Origin: Lachnospiraceae bacterium
GTDB taxonomy: Bacteria; Bacillota_A; Clostridia; Lachnospirales; Lachnospiraceae
Assembly (NCBI GenBank): GCA_017522685.1
Contig: JAFWYN010000028.1
Span: 38,079-102,078, forward strand
DNA length: 64,000 nt
Direction of reading: 5' to 3'
The stretch's first letter is position 1, and every line of letters begins with the position of its first letter. The notes under the pieces are model-generated. The model was not told where the DNA came from and did not search any database. It saw only the letters and a program-made list of their open reading frames with translations. Below are positions 37,763-48,080 of the stretch, one piece after another. The position numbers were made by a program, and so were the translations under genes.

Positions 37763-38281
37763 ATGAAGAATTTTAGAAATAATATAACGGTAATCGTAAG
37801 AATAAAGAATCGTGAATATATGTACATTAAAAATACCATATATGGGTATTCGCCGGAACTGGAAGGGCTTGGTTTTGAACACCATGATGAAGCCCCAACA
37901 TACCGCGAATACAGCCGACCGGTAGAGAAAAGCGAAATCGAATCGGCTTATCGGGTGAAATGTAATTACGGTATCTACAAAGGGGTACAAGTGCGGGTTG
38001 CAGATTATCAAAAGGATACCGGTAAGATTTACATAATGGTTGGTGACGATAAGCAGGGTGAGGCGTTAGGCATTGAGCCTTGGATAGACTACAACGACAA
38101 ATGCTATCGCTATTACGAGACATATGTTGATGTATCTGAGGTTACGGATATTTATGAAAAACGGGTGCCGGTGGAAGATTTCCCTTTCACCTGTCCGGAG
38201 ATTGTTTACCTGAAAAAGGACAGCCAGTGGATTCCCTGGCATGCGTATGGTACTTTGTTAAAGGATGGGGAGTGGGTATGA
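37763..38281 (+). CDS. Immunity-like small protein, unknown
   Basis: 172 residues, no signal or membrane helix. Beta-rich, with aromatic and acidic residues spread through it (RVADYQKDTGKIYIMVGDD, YVDVSEVTDIYEKRVPV). Not recognised. Translation is coupled to the next gene, whose ATG overlaps this stop (ATGA). Confidence 0.65.
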   Translation: MKNFRNNITVIVRIKNREYMYIKNTIYGYSPELEGLGFEHHDEAPTYREYSRPVEKSEIESAYRVKCNYGIYKGVQVRVADYQKDTGKIYIMVGDDKQGEALGIEPWIDYNDKCYRYYETYVDVSEVTDIYEKRVPVEDFPFTCPEIVYLKKDSQWIPWHAYGTLLKDGEWV

Positions 38282-38421
38282 TAAAAATTCGTAGATTCAT
38301 TCGTAAACTATATAGTTTTTTTGTAGAGTGTATATGGGGACCTATATTTACCTTGGTATTTATGGTGTTTTACTTAATATTCTATTTTATAAGAGCATTG
38401 TTTAGAGCAATCCTTAAATAG
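38278..38421 (+). CDS. Small basic membrane protein
   Basis: 47 residues. A basic N-terminus (MIKIRRFIRKLY) precedes one long hydrophobic segment (about 14-42) interrupted by a few charged residues at the end. Starts in the previous stop codon. Function unknown. Confidence 0.6.
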   Translation: MIKIRRFIRKLYSFFVECIWGPIFTLVFMVFYLIFYFIRALFRAILK

Positions 38422-38490
38422 CTGTGTATAGGATCATAAGTATCGTACCTTTCAAAGGATGCAGAGTGAATTCGTAAAGAGGAAGCATTT

Positions 38491-40038
38491 ATGTCAAATT
38501 GGGAAGAAGTAACACAAGACAAGGAATTACTGTCAAAAGTAGAAGATTGGGTTCGGGGACTGAGTATCGACTCTCCCCAGGAAATGTTCCATGACGGGAA
38601 TTATCCGGAACGAAAAGGTGAAGACTTAGATGCTTTTGATGATGTATTAAATGCAGAAACCAAAGGAGGAAAAAATAAAATGAGTATAATGGATAGGATT
38701 AATAAGAGTGATTATGTAGAGGTTTTCTCTGCTATTTTAGGAAAAATGATGGCTGCTCAGAGAAGGGTAGAAGAATATATTGAAAAAGACCAAGGATGGG
38801 AATATGACTTTGCGGAGGGAACCCTTTCCTTTGGCGAGGATGTTTATCCCGTGCAATTTATCGGAAAAGAGAAAGATGTTTGGAAGTGGGCACGCGAAGA
38901 GAACCATAAAGCATTTAATAAATGTGTTTTTGGTTTGGTAAACGAGGCTTATGCTTTGGGTGAGGAATGGAAATTTGAGTTGTTAACATCGCCTCAACTG
39001 GAAATAGAAGATGATTGTAACGGAGATCATATATCCGCCTTATGTTGTGGAATAAGTAAAGATAATTACGTTTATTATTGCGTACAGCCGGAAGAGGAAT
39101 ATATTTTCCTCGGAATAGGCAACGCACCGGAGGAAGTATATGCACCGGTTGACAGGAATGAATTCAAAAAGATAGTAGCAAGGGGTATCGAGGCTTATAC
39201 GATAGACCATAAAATCTTTTTAGAAGCATTTCTGGAGTGGAATAACACGCCGTACGAATGGAATGGCGACAACGTGATTGCGCATTTTGACAAAGATTTA
39301 GTCTTTGTATTTGAAGAGGACGAAGGCGATTATAGTATTACGTCAATAAAAACAGTATCCGGCAGGGAACCTTCAAATGAGCAGGCGAATAGCAGGATTT
39401 CAATAACCCTGGAAGACGGGGAAATCAATATACAGGGAACCATCAATCTGGGCTACATCGGTACTTATACGGATGACGAGATTGAGATAAATGACACCTT
39501 GGAGGAAATCAGAGAATGGGAGATTGTACAGGAACACCTTGACGAGGACTGTACGGATGAAGAGCTTATTGCGTTCTTAAATAAGTATTTTAATGAGTTC
39601 GCAGATAAAATAACCCGCAATATCGACAATATCAACGGTACGTTTTTGTTACAGACGTTTACGGATATGGAGTGCAATGAAATCGATTTTATGGAAATCG
39701 AGGAACTCTTTTTAGAGGACAAGCTGCCTTATGGTAATGAAGAGGATATCGCAGAACTCTATAATTTCGCACATGACGGCCTGCGAAGTCTCATCCCTTA
39801 TCTGGAATCCCCTAACGATGGCTGTATTCCCAAGGGACATATTGAAGCTTTACTCCGGTCCTTTTTCCCGGCCTTTGATTTCGATTGCTTTATTGCCAAT
39901 ATCGTTCCGGAGGTGGTGACGCTTTGTGACGGAAGTATCGCCTTCCAGTGTTCCGATGCCTTTGACGAGGCGATTTTGTGTGGAGCCTATGCGGAACTGG
40001 ATGAGGAATTGTGCTTCACGGATTGGCATAATTTTTAA
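38491..40038 (+). CDS. DUF6882-like protein with fused N-terminal remnant
   Basis: 515 residues in the longest frame. Residues 64-260 look like a DUF6882-type domain (EYIEKDQGWEYDFAEG, VWKWAREENHKAF); the rest is acidic and unrecognised. The first 63 residues resemble parts of the protein at 41199: NWEEVTQDKELLSKVED and FHDGNYPERKGED. Codons 58-63 (ACC AAA GGA GGA AAA AAT AAA) contain a perfect AAAGGAGG, 10 nt before in-frame ATG 38680. The original start may therefore be 38680, with the upstream part a fused remnant. Both products are possible. Confidence 0.75.
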   Translation: MSNWEEVTQDKELLSKVEDWVRGLSIDSPQEMFHDGNYPERKGEDLDAFDDVLNAETKGGKNKMSIMDRINKSDYVEVFSAILGKMMAAQRRVEEYIEKDQGWEYDFAEGTLSFGEDVYPVQFIGKEKDVWKWAREENHKAFNKCVFGLVNEAYALGEEWKFELLTSPQLEIEDDCNGDHISALCCGISKDNYVYYCVQPEEEYIFLGIGNAPEEVYAPVDRNEFKKIVARGIEAYTIDHKIFLEAFLEWNNTPYEWNGDNVIAHFDKDLVFVFEEDEGDYSITSIKTVSGREPSNEQANSRISITLEDGEINIQGTINLGYIGTYTDDEIEINDTLEEIREWEIVQEHLDEDCTDEELIAFLNKYFNEFADKITRNIDNINGTFLLQTFTDMECNEIDFMEIEELFLEDKLPYGNEEDIAELYNFAHDGLRSLIPYLESPNDGCIPKGHIEALLRSFFPAFDFDCFIANIVPEVVTLCDGSIAFQCSDAFDEAILCGAYAELDEELCFTDWHNF

Positions 40039-40052
40039 GAAGAAGTGACACT

Positions 40053-41171
40053 ATGAGAAGAATTGTTGGATATATTTTTTTGATTATACTTTTAATTTGT
40101 CAAACCATAAAAGGGTTATTTATAGCGTGGCTGGAATCATTTCAGCTTGACATGTATCTGTTGGACGCTATGTATGAAGAGAAGAAAGTAAAGCTATCCG
40201 CCATCCTTTCCATGCTTGGTACCATTCCTTTGCTTCTGGTAAGTGTGTTTGTGGCAAAGTGTTCTCTTGCCGGAAACGGAAATGTGGCAGCCCAGGCAGC
40301 CGTAATCGTTTGTGGAATCATGTTTTTAAAAACCTTTGGAAAGTTTCTTTTTAAGAGAACCACCTACCAATTCATTGAACTGTCGGAATTTAAGGCATTC
40401 CCTATATTTTTATGGCTTTTCAAGGGCCTGGAATGTGTTTTGTATTTCTGCTTGTGGCAGGAGCTGGGCTTGGGATTCTTAGTGGTATATCTGTTTGGTA
40501 CCGTCGTACACAGTAACGCGTTGTGGATCAAACATGAGATGGATACCTGGAATACAGACATGGAGGACATGAGGCAAACCTTTGGCGGCGAAATGACACT
40601 GGGCAGTATCGTGATTGCCATTGGTACGGTTTTGTGTGGGGTGCGGCTTGTGAAAGCAGGGAACAGCACGTTGGGGCTTGTCTGTGCCGCAGGCTTCCTT
40701 GTTATTGAGCTTGTGAAGGCTTATGCATTGGTTTTTGATAAGGGATTTTACAAGCTGTATCACAGCGAAAAGTATCAGGAAAAAGTCCCTGTTTCCGAAA
40801 ACGGAGCACGCCTGATACGCACAGAAAGAAGAAATATTAGAAGAAATCTCACCATAAAGGATGTGGCTATGGCACTTTTTCCTGTACTTGTGGCAGTGGC
40901 AGTCTGGGGAGTGCTTTCGGGCTTCTCGATGAATCTATTGTCTGAGGGAGCATTCCCTTGGAACATTTTAATCCTGGTGAGTTTGCTGCTTTACAGCCTT
41001 ACGTCAGGCGGCTATTGCGGTTCGCTTCACAGACTGGCATCTTTCCTTGTGCTGATACCGGCATTCATCCTGCTGTGGGAAAGCGTGGGGAATATCAGTA
41101 TCCCCGGTGTGCTGGTGATGTACTTTGGAATGATTGTGTATCAGTGGGATAAGTATCAGACGTATACATAG
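40053..41171 (+). CDS. Multi-pass membrane protein, unknown
   Basis: 372 residues with about nine to ten hydrophobic helices spread over the whole length and a basic loop near residues 255-275 (RLIRTERRNIRRNL). No transporter signature is visible. It starts 14 nt after the DUF6882-like gene with a weak ribosome site (AGAAGTGA). Unknown function. Confidence 0.7.
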   Translation: MRRIVGYIFLIILLICQTIKGLFIAWLESFQLDMYLLDAMYEEKKVKLSAILSMLGTIPLLLVSVFVAKCSLAGNGNVAAQAAVIVCGIMFLKTFGKFLFKRTTYQFIELSEFKAFPIFLWLFKGLECVLYFCLWQELGLGFLVVYLFGTVVHSNALWIKHEMDTWNTDMEDMRQTFGGEMTLGSIVIAIGTVLCGVRLVKAGNSTLGLVCAAGFLVIELVKAYALVFDKGFYKLYHSEKYQEKVPVSENGARLIRTERRNIRRNLTIKDVAMALFPVLVAVAVWGVLSGFSMNLLSEGAFPWNILILVSLLLYSLTSGGYCGSLHRLASFLVLIPAFILLWESVGNISIPGVLVMYFGMIVYQWDKYQTYT

Positions 41172-41198
41172 AAATTTATAAATGTGGAGGATAAAATT

Positions 41199-42227
41199 AT
41201 GGCAAAGAAAATAGTTGATTGGGAAACGGTAGCAAAGGACAGAGAGGTACTTGCAAGAGTTGAAGATATGGTAAAAGAGGGGGCTGCTATGGGCGGTGTG
41301 CTTCCCAAGGAAATGTGCGATGAACTGAATGCACTTACGGGGAATAAGTGGACCGGTAAGAAGTACAAGGAGTTCTGCGATGTATATGATTTCCCCTGGG
41401 AAGCAGAAGAAGTGGTATACGCTCTGTTTCACAATGGCGAATTTCCGGACAAGAAGGAAGAAGAATGGTTTGCATGGAAGATTGAAGAATCCATTGACAG
41501 TGACCAGGATGCCATCGCCTTTTTTTATCTGTGTCAATATGAGAATGACAGTGAAAGATGCAATAAGTATGAGCAGGTGGATGTAAAACCGTTAAATGAG
41601 GAAGTGCTCAGTGCTTTCGCCGGTTGGGAAATTGAGGAAGACTGGGAAAAGAATGATTATGTGACATTCTGGTGCAGTAACAAAGACACCTATGGCTATA
41701 AGAAAATGTTGAAGCTTTATAACGGATATTGTGACAGGATGTTATCTTGCCGAATGCTCAATTTTGATGAGAAAGAGAAAGAGACGATTTTAACGCTGCT
41801 TCAGAAGTATTACAACCATGTTTCTTGTGATTTCGATATCCAAAAGACATATCAGGTCATCGAATCGGAAATGCCCAGTCTGTTTGGAGCAAGTGCACCG
41901 GAGGGAGAAATGACCAGAGAGTTTCTGGAAGAGAACTGGGTGGTATCCTCCTATGACGAAGGAGAAGACTGTCAGTTGGATTATTACATGCATGAGATGA
42001 GCTGCTTCCCGGGAGAGAAGGCGTACTGTTATTCCCACGAGGATGATGAGCTGCGTGAACTGGAAATCGTGCATGTGATAGCACGTATGGATAATGCATC
42101 GTTGTATGATGAATTGATTCAGGACGAAGATGTGCTTATCAATGGAGAAGAAGAATATGGTGCGGATTGCAGTGCGGAGTTTACCGGAATGTTTAGCTGC
42201 TATCTGGTGTGGTTTAAAGAAGTGTAA
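41199..42227 (+). CDS. Acidic island protein, unknown
   Basis: 342 residues, soluble and strongly acidic. N-terminus DWETVAKDREVLARVEDMV and the FHNGEFPDKKEEE segment recur in shortened form in the fused N-terminus at 38491. Starts with GGAGG before the ATG; a GTG at 41184 within that site is rejected as start. Not recognised. Confidence 0.68.
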   Translation: MAKKIVDWETVAKDREVLARVEDMVKEGAAMGGVLPKEMCDELNALTGNKWTGKKYKEFCDVYDFPWEAEEVVYALFHNGEFPDKKEEEWFAWKIEESIDSDQDAIAFFYLCQYENDSERCNKYEQVDVKPLNEEVLSAFAGWEIEEDWEKNDYVTFWCSNKDTYGYKKMLKLYNGYCDRMLSCRMLNFDEKEKETILTLLQKYYNHVSCDFDIQKTYQVIESEMPSLFGASAPEGEMTREFLEENWVVSSYDEGEDCQLDYYMHEMSCFPGEKAYCYSHEDDELRELEIVHVIARMDNASLYDELIQDEDVLINGEEEYGADCSAEFTGMFSCYLVWFKEV

Positions 42228-42246
42228 GATAACGAGGTAAACCAAA

Positions 42247-43335
42247 TTGCGTTACATAATCGAAGATAAAAAGTATCGTTTTAAGTCTGCATTTGATACC
42301 GAAACAGGGGCCTATGTCCGTACCGGTGTGCTGGATGAAAAGGGCAAGGATACCGGGACAGACCCTTTTATGGCATCCTATCCTCATCTGATTGACGTGG
42401 GAATTATGGGACATTGTATCCACGGAAAAACCGGGCTTTGTGCCAAAGCAGGTATCGGATGCTATCAAAGCGGTATGCTAATAGAACAACCGAATATGTC
42501 AGTGGAAGATTTCCGGTGGATAGCAGAGCAGTCCAAGGGCAGGTGCAATCAGTTTGCACTGGGCGGCAGAGGAGACCCGGACCAGCATGAGTATTTTGAG
42601 GAGATTCTTCGAATCTGCCGTGAACATATGCTTGTGCCGAATTTTACCACCTCGGGCTATGGTATGACACCGGAAATCGCGAAGCTGTGCAAGCAGTATT
42701 GCGGCGCCGTGGCGGTAAGCTGGTATCGAAGTGAATATACCCTAAAAGCGATTCAGATGTTGCTTCAGGCCGGTGTTAAAACCAATATTCATTATGTCCT
42801 TGGCAATAACAGTATGGATGAAGCAATTGAGCGGTTGCGAAACAACGACTTCCCGGAAGGCATCAATGCAGTGATATTTCTCTTGCATAAGCCTGCCGGG
42901 CAGGGCACAAAGGCCAATATGCTCAAAGCGGATGACCCGAGAGTGGCGGCATTTTTTGCAGAGGTGGAAAAAAGACATTTCTTCAAGGTGGGAATGGATA
43001 GCTGTAATGTGCCGGGGGCAATCAATTTTTGTAAAACGGTCAGACCTGAATCTCTGGACACCTGTGAGGGAGGACGTTACAGCTGCTATATCGGTGCGGA
43101 TATGAATATGGTACCATGTAGCTTTGACCAGGAGAAACGGTATCAGGTATCCCTTAGGGAGATGACCATAGAGGAGGCTTGGAACAGTGAAGCCTTTGAG
43201 CGTTTTCGTAACAGAATGCGTGGAGCATGTCCGGATTGTGAAAAGAGAGAGCTTTGTATGGGTGGGTGCCCGTTAATGCCGGAAATAGTTTTTTGTGGAA
43301 GTGAAAAAAGAAAATACAATAATGTAAAGGGGTAA
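42247..43335 (+). CDS. Radical SAM/SPASM protein with CX7CX6C motif
   Basis: 362 residues from a TTG start (GAGG 12 nt upstream). In the position expected for the SAM-binding 4Fe-4S cluster there are C57, C65 and C72 (GHCIHGKTGLC, then AKAGIGCYQSG), spacing CX7CX6C rather than the usual CX3CX2C. The barrel follows with a GGRGDP motif (106-111), equivalent to the GGEP SAM-binding region. The C-terminus has SPASM-type cysteines: CEGGRYSCYIGADMNMVPC near 276-298 and CPDCEKRELCMGGCP near 328-343, for auxiliary clusters. Radical SAM/SPASM proteins usually modify a peptide or protein. The gene just downstream starts with MKIRTDFVTNSSSSSF, an attractive substrate. Chemistry unknown. Confidence 0.85.
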   Translation: MRYIIEDKKYRFKSAFDTETGAYVRTGVLDEKGKDTGTDPFMASYPHLIDVGIMGHCIHGKTGLCAKAGIGCYQSGMLIEQPNMSVEDFRWIAEQSKGRCNQFALGGRGDPDQHEYFEEILRICREHMLVPNFTTSGYGMTPEIAKLCKQYCGAVAVSWYRSEYTLKAIQMLLQAGVKTNIHYVLGNNSMDEAIERLRNNDFPEGINAVIFLLHKPAGQGTKANMLKADDPRVAAFFAEVEKRHFFKVGMDSCNVPGAINFCKTVRPESLDTCEGGRYSCYIGADMNMVPCSFDQEKRYQVSLREMTIEEAWNSEAFERFRNRMRGACPDCEKRELCMGGCPLMPEIVFCGSEKRKYNNVKG

Positions 43336-43341
43336 AAGAAG

Positions 43342-44748
43342 ATGAAAATCAGAACCGATTTTGTAACTAATTCCAGTAGCAGCAGTTTTATACTTGTAAT
43401 CGATATGGAGCTTGCGAATAATGAGTCAGTACGTTTTGAAGCCAATGGCGGTACGGATGAAACCGGAAGAATCGATTATTTCCGTTATGATGCCATCGTA
43501 AAAGTCAGCCCGAAACAGTTGAGTCAGGCAGAAAGTGTGGACGAACTGATTCAGATGCTGGAAGATGGTGTGGTAGACGGTCAGGTAAAAAACTATGACG
43601 AAAAATATGAGCAGAAAATATTTGACCGGTCCCGTGTAGAAGTAAATGACTGGGATGAAGAATTCGATGCTTATGATTTTGTGGAAGAGATCAGAAGTAA
43701 AATAACCGATGTGAGCCAGATTAAGAAAATCACCATTTCCGGTGAGGAAGACGGCGATTCTTATTACTTCAGAGAGTATGTCTATGATGTGGAAACCGGG
43801 GAATATACCGGCAAACAGATCGGAGAAGCATTCCAGGCAAACGGCTCAACCGGCGGTGACCTGCGTATAAGCGACCTTGACTTGTGTAAGATTACATACG
43901 ATGCGGACGACGGTGAAGAGGAAGAAGATACACAGGTAGAAATTTTGCAGTTACGCAATATGCAGGAAGAAGGAAACGATGGTCCCGATTATGTAGAAAC
44001 CGAAAACGGTGCAGTCATTAATAACATTAAATATGCCATTACTTCCGAAACTACCTGTAAGGTTGTGGGTTGTGAATGGGGCGGTAAAGAAGCGATTATT
44101 CCCGCAGAGGTAACAATCAAAGGCAAGCTGTATAAGGTTACCGCAGTGGGAGCTTCCGCCTTTTCTGTTAGCACTTTTGGACATATTGAGTTGCCGGTAG
44201 GAATTACAGAGATAGAAGATAATGCCTTAGAATGCTGGTTTTTGCAGAGTGTGAAGCTTCCTGACGGACTTATTACAATGGGAAATTTTATTTTTAATTG
44301 TTGCTCGAAGCTGGAGGAGGTTGAGATTCCTGATTCGGTGAAAAGCATAGGTTTGTATGCATTCCGCGGGTGTCAGAATCTGAAAAAAGTGAAGCTGTCA
44401 GCCGGACTGGAAGAATTAAGTGATTCTCTGTTTTGCGATTGCAAGTCCTTGGAGAGCATAGAAATTCCGGATTCTGTAAAAGTGATAGGTGAGGCTGTTT
44501 TCTCCGGCTGCGAAAAACTGAAAAAAGTGAAGCTGCCGGAAGGATTGACAGAGATTGACAGATTAGTGTTTAATGAGTGCAAGTCCTTGGAGTGTATAGA
44601 GATTCCGGACACGGTTAAGAGCATCGGTAACTATGCATTCTGTAAATGTGAAAAACTGACTGCCGTGGATTTGCCATCCGGACTGGTATCTGTAGGAGAA
44701 GGGGCATTTCAGGGCTGTTCATCGTTAAAAAATACCGAACTTCTGTAA
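43342..44748 (+). CDS. Preferred extent of the FVTNSSSSSF-leader LRR protein
   Basis: 468 residues from ATG 43342, the start to use for this gene (the 43357 entry is the same gene given a start within the leader and should be treated as superseded). AAGGGGTAAAAGAAG precedes the ATG, giving a clear ribosome site. The leader MKIRTDFVTNSSSSSF is therefore translated. Repeats resemble those of the next two genes, with a shared YAITSETTCKVVG segment before the first repeat. Confidence 0.85.
   Translation: MKIRTDFVTNSSSSSFILVIDMELANNESVRFEANGGTDETGRIDYFRYDAIVKVSPKQLSQAESVDELIQMLEDGVVDGQVKNYDEKYEQKIFDRSRVEVNDWDEEFDAYDFVEEIRSKITDVSQIKKITISGEEDGDSYYFREYVYDVETGEYTGKQIGEAFQANGSTGGDLRISDLDLCKITYDADDGEEEEDTQVEILQLRNMQEEGNDGPDYVETENGAVINNIKYAITSETTCKVVGCEWGGKEAIIPAEVTIKGKLYKVTAVGASAFSVSTFGHIELPVGITEIEDNALECWFLQSVKLPDGLITMGNFIFNCCSKLEEVEIPDSVKSIGLYAFRGCQNLKKVKLSAGLEELSDSLFCDCKSLESIEIPDSVKVIGEAVFSGCEKLKKVKLPEGLTEIDRLVFNECKSLECIEIPDTVKSIGNYAFCKCEKLTAVDLPSGLVSVGEGAFQGCSSLKNTELL
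43357..44748 (+). CDS. FVTNSSSSSF-leader LRR protein, candidate radical SAM substrate
   Basis: About 463 residues. Starting at ATG 43342 the protein opens MKIRTDFVTNSSSSSF, a short conserved-looking segment with five consecutive serines, followed by an acidic domain (about 20-220) and then BspA/TpLRR-type repeats (about 225-468; LEEVEIPDSVKSIGLYAF, LESIEIPDSVKVIG). The start coordinate that matches this peptide is 43342. There is no signal peptide, which is unusual for BspA-type LRR proteins. It lies 6 nt after the radical SAM gene. Function unknown; coupling to the radical SAM gene suggests modification of the Ser-rich N-terminus. Confidence 0.5.
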   Translation, partial: DFVTNSSSSSFILVIDMELANNESVRFEANGGTDETGRIDYFRYDAIVKVSPKQLSQAESVDELIQMLEDGVVDGQVKNYDEKYEQKIFDRSRVEVNDWDEEFDAYDFVEEIRSKITDVSQIKKITISGEEDGDSYYFREYVYDVETGEYTGKQIGEAFQANGSTGGDLRISDLDLCKITYDADDGEEEEDTQVEILQLRNMQEEGNDGPDYVETENGAVINNIKYAITSETTCKVVGCEWGGKEAIIPAEVTIKGKLYKVTAVGASAFSVSTFGHIELPVGITEIEDNALECWFLQSVKLPDGLITMGNFIFNCCSKLEEVEIPDSVKSIGLYAFRGCQNLKKVKLSAGLEELSDSLFCDCKSLESIEIPDSVKVIGEAVFSGCEKLKKVKLPEGLTEIDRLVFNECKSLECIEIPDTVKSIGNYAFCKCEKLTAVDLPSGLVSVGEGAFQGCSSLKNTELL

Positions 44749-44790: not shown

Positions 44791-46584
44791 ATGAATGAAG
44801 CTACAAATAACGTAAACGATAATGTTGAATATGAGATTACTTCAGAGACTACTTGTGAAGTGGTTGGTTATGAAGGAGAACTTGCGGAAGTGAGCATACC
44901 GGAGACGGTTATCATCGACGGAAAACAGTATGCGGTTACCTCGGTGGCTGATCGTGCTTTCTATGGCTGTAAGGAGTTGGAATCGGTTGAACTTCCTGAC
45001 TCTGTAGAAGACATTGGTGGATTTGTTTTCTGCGATTGCGAAAACTTAAGCAAAGTCAAGCTTCCGGCCGGACTTACAAAAATAAATACCTTTACTTTTA
45101 AAGGGTGTAAGTCTTTGGAACATATAGAGCTTCCGGATTCTATTACAACCATAGGTGATTGGGCTTTCTATAATTGTGAAAAACTAAGTGCGATCGATTT
45201 TCCTTCCGGATTAAGAGTCTTGAAAGGTGGGGCTTTTCAAGGTTGTGCATCTTTAAAGCACGTTGAACTTCCGTTAGGGTTAACAGAGATTGATAGAATT
45301 GTCTTTGCTAATTGTCCGTCATTGGAGGAACTTCCTGAAGCACCGTTTTGTAAATATGGTTTTAGCGAAGATGTCAGTAAGGAAGTTGTGGATGAGGAGG
45401 AAGGTAGCACTGAACCGGAAGACTGCTGCGAGCAGGAAGTGACAAGGGGTATCAAGCCTTGCAAATTGGCTAAAAATATCATAAGAGTCTGGTCCTACAA
45501 AGGGGAACCGGTGAAACTTTTTCCTGATAAAATTGTGATTGGAGAGAAGGAGCTTCCTACAGAATATAATAAATATACCTGCAAGAACGGTGTTTTGTCT
45601 TGTGAAGATGATGAAAACTTCTATGTTTATGACGGGAATCAATTTGTACAGACAGAATGCAGATACAATCACCACAATGATTACTTTTCGCCGGAAGTAT
45701 TCGTTTCCGCAAAGGTAGATATCGAAAACAGTATTCAGTACATCGCCTTAAACGACCATGGGGCTCAATACGAATTTGAATATACTTTCGTAAACCCGTA
45801 TTTAAATTTTATGAAGCTTACGAAAGAAAAACAGAATAACTCGTTTTCGGAATACTATTATTTTCCTAAAGTAGGAGTGCTGCTCGCTGTAGAATTAGTA
45901 GATAAGAACAACCCCAAACTTCGCTTTTTTTCTAAAACAGGAGAAGAATTGTGGAGCTTAGAGCAAGTAAAGGGAGAAGGATCCTTTAAGTCCCTCTCGT
46001 TTTATGTGAATACCATGAGTATTGACTTTGAAAGCAATGAAATCCTTATAAAAGTACAAAAAGGGAAACGTTGCTATACGGTTTGCTACAATGTGCAAAA
46101 CGGTGAAGTGATTTGGTATCGGAAAGAAAATCATCCGTTCCTGTTTAGCGGTGCGAAGGGTGAAGACGGACTTCAGCATGGATTGATTCCGTATAAGGAA
46201 AACGGAACGCTTGGTACTGTATTGTTTGAAATGAATCCGTCAACGAAGAAAGTGCGTACCTACCGTATTTCAGAGGACGCTAAGGCTGAGAAAGTGTCAG
46301 TTTCCGGCTATGAAACCAAGAATGACGTCTACAAATATATTCTAGACGGAGAAATCTTGTATGCGGTTCACGAAGCGGAGCTGATAGTTGTGGACATTAA
46401 AAAGAAGCGGATATTGGGCAGAAAATCAGCACCGAAAAATTGCAAGTATTTTCAAAACGCTACGGTTCTGATAGAAGATAAGCTGTATGTATGCTTATAT
46501 TATGCTTCCGGCAAAAAGGAAGGCCAATATTTTAGTGAATGTTACTGTTTGGATGAAAGGAGAAATGAAAATAATGACAAATAA
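44791..46584 (+). CDS. BspA-type LRR protein with propeller-like C-terminus
   Basis: 597 residues, no signal peptide. YEITSETTCEVVGYEG (14-29) parallels the previous protein; six LRRs follow to about residue 190 (LESVELPDSVEDIGGFVF, LEHIELPDSITTIGDWAF). The C-terminal 370 residues show repeated beta strands with aromatic residues (LRFFSKTGEELWSLEQ, YNVQNGEVIWYRKE, ELIVVDIKKKRILG), resembling PQQ-type or WD-type propeller blades. AGGAGG precedes the ATG. Probably a cytoplasmic binding protein. Confidence 0.78.
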   Translation: MNEATNNVNDNVEYEITSETTCEVVGYEGELAEVSIPETVIIDGKQYAVTSVADRAFYGCKELESVELPDSVEDIGGFVFCDCENLSKVKLPAGLTKINTFTFKGCKSLEHIELPDSITTIGDWAFYNCEKLSAIDFPSGLRVLKGGAFQGCASLKHVELPLGLTEIDRIVFANCPSLEELPEAPFCKYGFSEDVSKEVVDEEEGSTEPEDCCEQEVTRGIKPCKLAKNIIRVWSYKGEPVKLFPDKIVIGEKELPTEYNKYTCKNGVLSCEDDENFYVYDGNQFVQTECRYNHHNDYFSPEVFVSAKVDIENSIQYIALNDHGAQYEFEYTFVNPYLNFMKLTKEKQNNSFSEYYYFPKVGVLLAVELVDKNNPKLRFFSKTGEELWSLEQVKGEGSFKSLSFYVNTMSIDFESNEILIKVQKGKRCYTVCYNVQNGEVIWYRKENHPFLFSGAKGEDGLQHGLIPYKENGTLGTVLFEMNPSTKKVRTYRISEDAKAEKVSVSGYETKNDVYKYILDGEILYAVHEAELIVVDIKKKRILGRKSAPKNCKYFQNATVLIEDKLYVCLYYASGKKEGQYFSECYCLDERRNENNDK

Positions 46585-47872
46585 AGAACTTGCTGAGTTT
46601 GAAAAAGAAAATGAATTTAATTTATTTAATAGTGAATATGTAGTATATCCGGGATACACTATGAGATTTTTGATTAAATCCCCAAAAACCTGTGCCGCCG
46701 GAGGCATTGAAAAGGTAACGGAAAAAAATCTGCATCTTGAAATACCTGCCAGTGTTGAAATTAACGGAAATACATATTGGGTGAATGAAATATTTGCAGA
46801 AAGCTTCTGGGGTAATGATTATATTGAATCTGTGACGATACCTGATACGGTTACTTGCATAGACTATGGAGCGTTTAATCAATGTCGCTTCTTAAAGAGC
46901 GTACACATTCCGGATTCGGTAACCGTAATTGATGAACTTGCGTTTACCGGCTGTAAATCCTTAAAATCTGTCAGCCTGCCTGCAAACGTCAAGATTGACA
47001 AAGACAGCTTTGATAGGCGTAAGTCGCTTGTCATAACAAGACGTGAGCCTGTGGAACCTGTTTTAGTTGACGCGAAAGCTGATTCTGCAAAGCAGAGTGA
47101 CTGTGGTGCAGATAAGAAGAATGAAAGCCTGTTTGATGAGAAGCTGTTTATCTGGGAAGGCAAAAAGACCTTTTCTCATGATAATTTTGACGAGCTTGAT
47201 GATATGGATAAGCTACAGGTTCTCACCGGTTGTGAATGCAAAGAGTTCGATGGTTCGGTTGACACTTATTTCAAATACCGTGAACAGGGTAAGAAAGAAG
47301 GCTTCATTCCTGTGATTGTTGCCACGGACGATATATATTTTGAGCAGCTGGAAGTTTTTTTGAAATGCGGTGGCGAAGGTTCTATCTCTAAGATTCAGAA
47401 AATTGTGGAGAAATATCATAAAAAGATGTTGGCAGAGCCTGTGGAAGACGGCAAGGCTTATCTTGAGAAAAATCATATTTTCGGTGAATGGGATGACGAC
47501 GTAGATTTGGACGGTGAAGATTATGAGGCATCAGACGCATTCACCAGAAACGGTTATCTTGTGAGAGTGCCTGTTACCGAGCCGTGGCGTATCTGGGTCT
47601 ACCTGCCTTACGGCGGCTGGAATGCTTGTCCGAAGGTTACAGAGCACATGGCTGTATCAAAGTACTGGTACGAGCAATATGGTGCATATCCTGCCGTGTT
47701 ATCCTTTGACACCATTGATTATGCGGTAGAAAAGCCGGTAGAAGACCTTGAGAAGCTTGCAAATGAAATGGGTACCTACTGCTTCGATATTGTAGAGCAA
47801 GGCTGTGAAACCTATAGTGCTTTGGCGGCAAGCCTTGTGAATTCAAGGATTTGGAATTTCTGGTGGGATTAG
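46574..47872 (+). CDS. LRR protein with DUF4253 C-terminal domain
   Basis: 432 residues. LRR-type repeats at about 70-145 (LKSVHIPDSVTVIDELAF) and a C-terminal DUF4253 domain (about 315-432) recognisable by YLPYGGWNACPKVTEHMAVS, YGAYPAVLSFDTIDY and the ending SRIWNFWWD. DUF4253 occurs in immunity-type gene arrays; no activity is known. The gene overlaps the previous one by 11 nt; AGGAG lies 11 nt before ATG 46574, and ATG 46565 is too close to it. Confidence 0.8.
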   Translation: MTNKELAEFEKENEFNLFNSEYVVYPGYTMRFLIKSPKTCAAGGIEKVTEKNLHLEIPASVEINGNTYWVNEIFAESFWGNDYIESVTIPDTVTCIDYGAFNQCRFLKSVHIPDSVTVIDELAFTGCKSLKSVSLPANVKIDKDSFDRRKSLVITRREPVEPVLVDAKADSAKQSDCGADKKNESLFDEKLFIWEGKKTFSHDNFDELDDMDKLQVLTGCECKEFDGSVDTYFKYREQGKKEGFIPVIVATDDIYFEQLEVFLKCGGEGSISKIQKIVEKYHKKMLAEPVEDGKAYLEKNHIFGEWDDDVDLDGEDYEASDAFTRNGYLVRVPVTEPWRIWVYLPYGGWNACPKVTEHMAVSKYWYEQYGAYPAVLSFDTIDYAVEKPVEDLEKLANEMGTYCFDIVEQGCETYSALAASLVNSRIWNFWWD

Positions 47873-47873
47873 T

Positions 47874-48080
47874 ATGAAGATAATAAAAGCAATAAAAGAC
47901 TTTAAGAATAGTTTAAAGGATGGATGGAAGCCGTTTTTCATAATTATAGGTTTATTTGAGGTGATATATGTGATATTATCTATATTAGGTTATCTGATAT
48001 GGATAATAGCTGATAAGATACGTATGCATAAGCGTTATGTAAAGGGACGAAAAGGGGAAGAAAAAAGTACGGAAGATTAG
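47874..48080 (+). CDS. Small membrane protein
   Basis: 68 residues with a hydrophobic stretch (about 20-48) flanked by basic segments; start 1 nt after the previous stop. Similar in kind to the 47-residue protein at 38278. Unknown function. Confidence 0.6.
   Translation: MKIIKAIKDFKNSLKDGWKPFFIIIGLFEVIYVILSILGYLIWIIADKIRMHKRYVKGRKGEEKSTED

Follow-up and report, generated by a model that had tools for sequence, protein, structure and literature searches.

The stretch of DNA analysed here, 64,000 nucleotides (nt) of a Lachnospiraceae genome (contig JAFWYN010000028.1, positions 38,079 to 102,078) and hereafter called the window, contains a gene for a radical S-adenosylmethionine (SAM) enzyme with a SPASM domain and, head to tail with it, a gene for a leucine-rich repeat (LRR) protein that begins with a serine-rich segment of 16 residues, the tag. 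Exactly 6 nt (AAGAAG) separate the TAA stop codon of the first gene from the ATG of the second. As a matter of genomics, it is close to certain that tag and enzyme form a dedicated pair. The features of the locus, all on the forward strand, are as follows.

42234–42237, forward strand: GAGG, the likely site of ribosome binding for the enzyme gene (read by eye)
42247–43335, forward strand: radical SAM/SPASM enzyme, open reading frame (ORF) of 362 residues with a TTG start
42415–42462, forward strand: codons of Cys57 to Cys72, the CX7CX6C loop with the three conserved SAM-cluster cysteines
42562–42579, forward strand: GGRGDP motif of the enzyme, at residue 106
43063–43239, forward strand: SPASM domain of the enzyme, residues 273–331 (Pfam)
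43342–44748, forward strand: tagged protein of 468 residues, ATG start at 43342
43342–43389, forward strand: N-terminal tag MKIRTDFVTNSSSSSF, residues 1–16, the proposed substrate
43390–43851, forward strand: acidic domain behind the tag, residues 17–170, common to relatives carrying LRR, BRCT or HIRAN domains
44005–44745 (approximate limits), forward strand: BspA-type leucine-rich repeats of the tagged protein (Pfam)
44791–46584, forward strand: downstream LRR protein with similar repeats, tagless; it lies outside the pair and is a useful contrast

Residues 1–220 of the tagged protein include 55 Asp or Glu against 21 Lys or Arg, and its repeats match LRR_5 in Pfam (E 4.6e-54). The 19-residue Kyte–Doolittle mean peaks at 1.08, at residue 266, and by this measure alone the protein has no obvious signal peptide. 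Together with the ORF reading, Pfam matches and alignment of the enzyme, these values bear out the original prediction, which had described a CX7CX6C motif (C57, C65, C72), GGRGDP and SPASM-like cysteines in the enzyme and, 6 nt downstream, a protein with an acidic domain, LRRs and no signal peptide. The tag is present once in the six frames of the whole window.

The window enzyme matches the SPASM family PF13186 of Pfam with 35.5 bits (E 1.2e-8; cut-off 21.5) and TIGR04085 with 32.7 bits (cut-off 27). In an alignment of 95 enzymes of what we call type I (two further types are described below), C57, C65 and C72 are conserved in 94, 93 and 94 sequences, respectively, the auxiliary-cluster cysteines C253, C273, C291 and C331 in 94–95 and C152 in 87, while C328 (70), C337 (49), C341 (46) and C350 (45) are optional; positions are in window-enzyme numbering. 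The enzyme model, built from 32 aligned sequences, has a predicted local distance difference test score (pLDDT) of 89.4, and the best Foldseek matches to it are radical SAM enzymes (E 7e-12), including SuiB, anSMEcpe, PqqE, TigE and SkfB, with a SuiB entry the nearest by sequence (E 5.5e-13). As modelled, the window enzyme is a radical SAM barrel with a SPASM domain, of the peptide-modifying fold type. Its assignment as an anaerobic sulfatase maturase was ruled out by a score of 13.1 bits against a cut-off of 349.45. The spacing of the cluster cysteines varies across the family (CX3CX2C, CX5CX3C, CX7CX2C, CX7CX6C, CX7CX8C and CX12CX2C), so that CX7CX6C, odd as it is, characterises the branch to which the window enzyme belongs. 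It does not define the system, for which it had originally been taken as a mark, because the same tag accompanies relatives whose spacing is the canonical CX3CX2C.

A search with residues 1–170 of the tagged protein returned 159 proteins; among the 120 listed, 119 start with MKxRxDFVTNSS, the remaining one (P0033) having a later start, and this start persists while identity across the searched region drops to about 30%. Precomputed domains behind the tag in these relatives include LRR, BRCT and HIRAN, and the tag is found also on many unrelated bodies, often small phage proteins. The 16-residue tag is nearly constant and the protein behind it varies. Since the bodies differ, the tag is no peculiarity of LRR proteins, and the full-size repeat protein, to which the original prediction had given weight, is incidental. 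The nature of the bodies bears equally on a reading modelled on ribosomally synthesised and post-translationally modified peptides (RiPPs), in which the modified tag would be cleaved off and released as a small peptide, the body being a follower or carrier. SPASM enzymes of this fold, of which SuiB, PqqE and SkfB are the nearest, do mature small peptides, but the bodies here are retained as full domains, and phage arrays carry up to eight differing bodies behind a near-identical tag, none of which a peptide product needs. Nor did reading of the ORF lists by eye reveal a constant protease or exporter beside the pairs, and we regard release of a peptide as improbable.

The composition of the tag was examined in 224 distinct examples from the fetched loci, collected with an anchor pattern that leaves positions 9–16 free except for a minimum of at least four Ser. 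N10 and S11 are invariant (224/224), S12, S13 and S15 are kept in 223, 221 and 216 tags, and position 14 is free, being Ser in 174. Position 9 is Thr (119) or Ser (105), and position 16 is Phe (189), Tyr (34) or Asn (1). In an earlier set of 54 tags, conservation falls below 1 bit from position 19 onward; the patterns used for that set and for counting tags in viral loci fix N-S-S. TCN and AGY codons are both used at each of positions 11–15 (122 and 101 at position 12), and because the two are not interconvertible by one base change, it is the amino acid that is conserved. Mononucleotide shuffles, three per locus over 131 viral loci, yielded no tag call against 294 in the real sequences, which, with the 119 of 120 conserved starts, places the tag far from chance. 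Low-complexity coincidence as the origin of the tag is ruled out by the mixed Ser codons and the absence of shuffled tags.

In the AlphaFold model of the tagged relative P0020, pLDDT stays below 50 for residues 3–11, and the first strand begins only with residue 15; on this model, the tag is a flexible tail. No Protein Data Bank entry matched the tag profile at E ≤ 10, no fold matched the tagged-protein model at E ≤ 0.001, and a Pfam scan of ten tagged bodies gave a single match, under cut-off. The tryptic N-terminal peptide of a tagged protein of phage RB16 reads SGFVSNSSSSSFIVR. Two sorts of body recur in the loci. Tagged proteins of about 470–500 residues or longer, with a hydrophobic Ala-rich stretch behind the tag (by eye), occur in L010, L011, L076, L080, L081 and L082, and the four of these scanned have no Pfam domain above cut-off; a body with a CxxC-like ICxIC after the tag recurs across otherwise different viral arrays (L027, L028, L029, L143, L197 and other viral loci).

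Tag and enzyme occur together in cellular genomes. Of the 391 class genomes searched, five match the enzyme profile, and the same five match the tag profile at E ≤ 1.8e-6, at most 2 kb from the enzyme; the chance of such an overlap is 1.3e-11 if genomes are treated as independent. Among 398 genomes of the phylum, the tag profile matches nine, and the enzyme is present in all nine and in none of 20 listed tag-negative genomes out of 389 (chance 1.0e-7, on the same assumption of independence). In all nine, the tag and enzyme matches lie within about 0.5 kb of each other, with the enzyme of G737 split across two contigs, one of which carries the tag. A search for the tag alone in 299 genomes of the phylum of G455 found just G455 itself. 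A search among 61 relatives found one enzyme, its start overlapped by a tagged ORF.

Seven genome-contig loci, L002–L008, were inspected individually. In L002–L006, the tagged gene lies directly 3′ of a complete enzyme gene, L007 stops inside the enzyme, and L008 holds remnants. The tag is present in six of the seven underlying genomes, the exception being that of L008, which has enzyme remnants only. At 41186–42305 and 47159–48044 of the window, L008 matches with about 90% identity, but of the pair it keeps no more than brief remnants, from the enzyme gene and from the final part of the tagged gene: both are missing together. The 342-residue gene immediately upstream of the pair in the window is retained in L008.

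The association extends to phages. From one search of viral contigs, 80 of 87 loci were kept; of two protein searches made in the course of the analysis, 120 of 246 and 120 of 4461 proteins were listed. One to eight tagged ORFs, often in tandem, are found in 74 of 84 type I loci, a number that includes near copies. The tag motif occurs 301 times in the six frames of the viral loci, 294 times at the N-terminus of an ORF, and all 294 of these tags (242 of type I and 52 of types II and III) share the strand of the enzyme. Because many viral loci are near copies, the enzymes from all loci were clustered at 50% identity; for 42 of the resulting 49 clusters, one or more of the fetched loci contain a tag. 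Five tags each are found in Vibrio phage D479 and in the contig of L032. In phages RB16, KP15 and CfP1, no tag lies inside the 11 kb around the enzyme, and two tagged genes lie about 20 kb away in each. In tblastn searches, the RB16 enzyme hit 174 phage records and the two tagged proteins of RB16 hit 175 and 174, the host-genus breakdowns being almost equal; the comparison is one of host-genus counts and not of individual records, 60 of the 174–175 in each set being listed, and the phages are close kin. A PhoH query in viral contigs gave five loci, all of RB16-like phages, and was not used as a control. The tag is present in eight of ten records scanned, weakly and as a fused variant in Salmonella phage Arash; the two tagless records are the uncultured phage LR756500 and the 5-kb fragment of L021. 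Neither tag nor enzyme was found in T4, RB49, KVP40, phiKZ, SPO1 or S-PM2. Lack of co-occurrence across genomes had been named beforehand as an observation that would refute the original reading, which has survived this test strongly in both cells and phages.

The tag varies in step with the enzyme. On a quick maximum-likelihood tree of the 95 type I enzymes, 85 of them labelled by the residue at tag position 9 (49 Thr and 36 Ser, L039 and L032 being set to Ser by hand), two changes suffice to account for the labels. Shuffled labels need 27.6 changes on average, and none of 500 shuffles came as low as two. In the 83 type I clusters whose label comes from their own loci, Thr and Ser are never mixed; the type II cluster L096 mixes them. 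Tag variants track enzyme clades.

Relatives of the enzyme of Arash led to two further types. In type II, ORFs of Microcystis phage Ma-LMM01 and Prevotella phage Lak-B5 bear N-terminal QxR--VFETNSSSTH beside a radical SAM gene. In the Lak-B5 megaphage (L094, 3941–6935), this gene is followed by four tandem VFETNSSSTH ORFs, the only four type II tag matches in its 543-kb genome. A search of 177 class genomes gave no type II tag, with no positive control in that set. In type III, tags resembling GFATNSSSSHS share the ORF of the enzyme itself. Among 50 type II/III enzymes, 17 have this fused form, roughly 12 of which are distinct. Arash gp146c (L042, 4551–5981), annotated as a methyltransferase, combines an N-terminal IRYGFATNSSSSHS tag with a C-terminal radical SAM domain in one ORF, and 16 more fused tag–enzyme ORFs are found in viral contigs. 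Of the viral loci obtained with the type II/III profile, 41 of 47 have a tag. In the 50 type II/III enzymes, only the three SAM-cluster cysteines are conserved, all other columns having less than 30% Cys. [T/S]NSSS is common to all three tag types. Since sister enzymes that lack the auxiliary-cluster cysteines share this core, the auxiliary cluster is probably dispensable for the shared reaction, unless the types differ in chemistry.

These data bear on the view that the two genes merely travel together on mobile DNA, with no functional link and a tag that is low-complexity sequence. The pairs are indeed patchy and present in phages and plasmids, as such a view expects, but the link persists at a distance of about 20 kb, over 49 clusters at 50% identity and in the form of a single ORF, and the mixed Ser codons and tag-free shuffles speak against chance. 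Linkage over about 20 kb and the tag–enzyme fusions rule out simple operon hitch-hiking, and the broader view appears to us very improbable indeed.

We think it probable that the tag is the substrate of the enzyme, its [T/S]NSSS core holding the modified residue or residues, and that it constitutes a transferable N-terminal modification site. In a tag-bearing protein, the enzyme would bind the flexible N-terminal stretch (M-K-[IV]-R-x-[DG]-F-V), and 5′-deoxyadenosyl-radical chemistry would alter at least one residue of the [T/S]-N-S-S-S core, with the body behind the tag remaining attached as cargo. The bodies have no common sequence, the tag is common to all, and N10 and S11–S13 are fixed where position 14 is free; the likely target is for these reasons the tag and not the body. 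From such sequence comparisons, we infer both the substrate role of the tag and the change in the NSSS core; as chemistry, modification of the tag is a strong prediction. Candidate reactions, among which we have no preference, are epimerisation, desaturation, oxidation of Ser, formation of a C–C bond and removal of the Ser side chain. A substrate role for the Ser-rich N-terminus of a full-size protein had been put forward in the original prediction, and it is the best-supported reading, though supported only in part. Its competitor is a tag that serves only for docking or as an adaptor, holding the cargo on the enzyme or switching the enzyme, while the modification itself falls elsewhere on the cargo or on a third molecule. 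The conserved M-K-[IV]-R-x-[DG]-F-V resembles a recognition stretch, and in the part of PMC8326336 consulted, RiPP enzymes are described as often requiring a leader that is itself left unmodified. The bodies, however, offer no common sequence to serve as a shared target, docking alone does not demand that N10 and S11–S13 be fixed though S14 is free, and type III enzymes carry the tag on their own ORF. A pure docking role therefore seems unlikely, while deserving more credence than the release of a peptide.

Several observations weigh against the tag as the substrate of a dedicated enzyme. The window enzyme has no match to Radical_SAM (PF04055) of Pfam at E ≤ 1; 12 of 22 relatives match it at E ≤ 0.01. 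LR756500 has a distant enzyme and neither a type I nor a type II tag, and the fetched stretch is free of tags in 10 of the 84 viral loci of type I and in 6 of the 47 of types II and III. Weak partial tag matches occur without the enzyme in two of the 391 class genomes, G385 and G124. Close kinship among many of the loci and phage records means that the counts overstate independence. Finally, the substrate role is a prediction from sequence and genome comparison.

The surroundings of some pairs suggest a context for their use. In L036 (4736–10729), genes for an MBL protein, a protease, a STAND ATPase and a protein of 142 residues precede those for the tagged protein and the enzyme; the first three match the PADLOC models for Avs1a-like MBL (E 2.8e-79), Avs1b-like protease (7e-20) and Avs2-like STAND ATPase (2e-24). 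The Avs1 gene set is complete in L036 and partial in L038 (1–5452), where a single protein of 984 residues matches the protease and STAND models. By eye, the operon order of L036 recurs in L222 (4490–10344) and L223 (3553–9549), and all four Avs1-like operons have an extra gene for 133–142 residues, the tagged gene and the radical SAM gene. In plasmids of Agrobacterium, Rhodobacter and Rhizobium, a gene annotated with a SMEK domain lies upstream of tag and enzyme, and the one such gene tested has a NACHT match. The pair of Proteiniclasticum ruminis is flanked by genes matching the DrmD and TmtA models and by an McrBC-like pair, the latter recognised by eye. Settings of this kind make a conflict role likely for some pairs, that of the window being left aside; in some hosts, the use of the system is likely to be the marking of proteins in conflict settings, such as phage gene arrays and defence operons. 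We advance tentatively, as a possibility that falls somewhat short of an even chance, a new system of post-translational protein marking in which three related radical SAM types, one with and two without auxiliary-cluster cysteines, install one chemistry on the shared N-terminal [T/S]NSSS core of proteins that are otherwise unrelated. Phages and STAND-type defence operons of bacteria would both use it, and the mark may then belong to the conflict itself, where it could, for example, signal activation, label self or act as a decoy.

Other pairs have different neighbours. Those of L037, L224 and L225 lie near ABC-transporter genes, and that of L037 also near nifB- and nifV-like genes (by eye). 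In the window, a Pfam scan found only proteins without assigned function and LRR proteins beside the pair; the genes nearby (37763–41171 and 46571–47872) include those for a protein with DUF6882, for a membrane-like one and for one that combines LRRs with DUF4253. None of the MBL, protease and STAND genes of Avs1 (AVAST type I) is among the scanned window neighbours.

If correct, our proposal gives bacteria and their viruses a transferable N-terminal modification site with a dedicated enzyme, and it concerns proteins now called hypothetical in RB16, RB43, KP15, Ma-LMM01 and the Lak megaphages, with a testable function for PHROG 7293 (enzyme) and PHROG 7397 (tagged protein). It would probably involve a new radical SAM reaction, the auxiliary cluster being unneeded in two of the three types, and would add a component to some Avs-like operons. 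The tag could also serve as a short, genetically encoded means of protein labelling.

The fold of the enzyme is already known. No description of the tag was found in open-access PubMed Central (PMC) full text, most subscription papers and bioRxiv lying outside this scope, and to that extent the original view that no described class has these features stands. The letters of the tag, sought in 5.39 million open-access papers, turned up in two, both unrelated to judge by title and abstract. In the literature searched, no described system couples one unvarying N-terminal tag, borne by unrelated proteins, with a radical SAM enzyme of its own. The word ‘phage’ is absent from the part of PMC8326336 consulted, and PMC10853773, considered as related work, proved in the portion consulted to be unrelated in content. 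In the consulted section of Kaur et al. 2020 (PMC7159879), a radical SAM domain is described as likely to modify a peptide effector in vWA-MoxR conflict systems. These vWA-MoxR/FtsH systems, the one related idea that emerged, resemble the present one in that a radical SAM gene is said to act on what an adjacent gene of a conflict operon encodes; no tag is named in that section (section 21).

Of the systems already characterised, the SPASM peptide-modifying enzymes SuiB, PqqE, SkfB and CteB share with the window enzyme the fold, the SPASM domain and the position of the enzyme gene beside that of the presumed substrate. Their substrates are small dedicated precursor peptides, whereas here a constant tag is borne by many unrelated, often full-size proteins (468 residues in the window, of widely varying length elsewhere), and the spacing of the cluster loop varies. 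The anaerobic sulfatase-maturing enzymes (anSMEs) are likewise SPASM radical SAM proteins, rank high in the fold search with the window enzyme and alter a Ser or Cys within a protein. In sulfatases, the motif is C/S-x-P-x-R, which the tag does not have, and no sulfatase was seen in the window ORF lists or in the Pfam and NCBIfam scans of those neighbours that were tested. The logic is shared with LPXTG and sortase or PEP-CTERM and exosortase, in which one short constant tag on many unrelated proteins is served by one dedicated enzyme; in the present system, by contrast, the tag is N-terminal, on a protein that has no evident signal peptide, and the dedicated enzyme belongs to the radical SAM superfamily.

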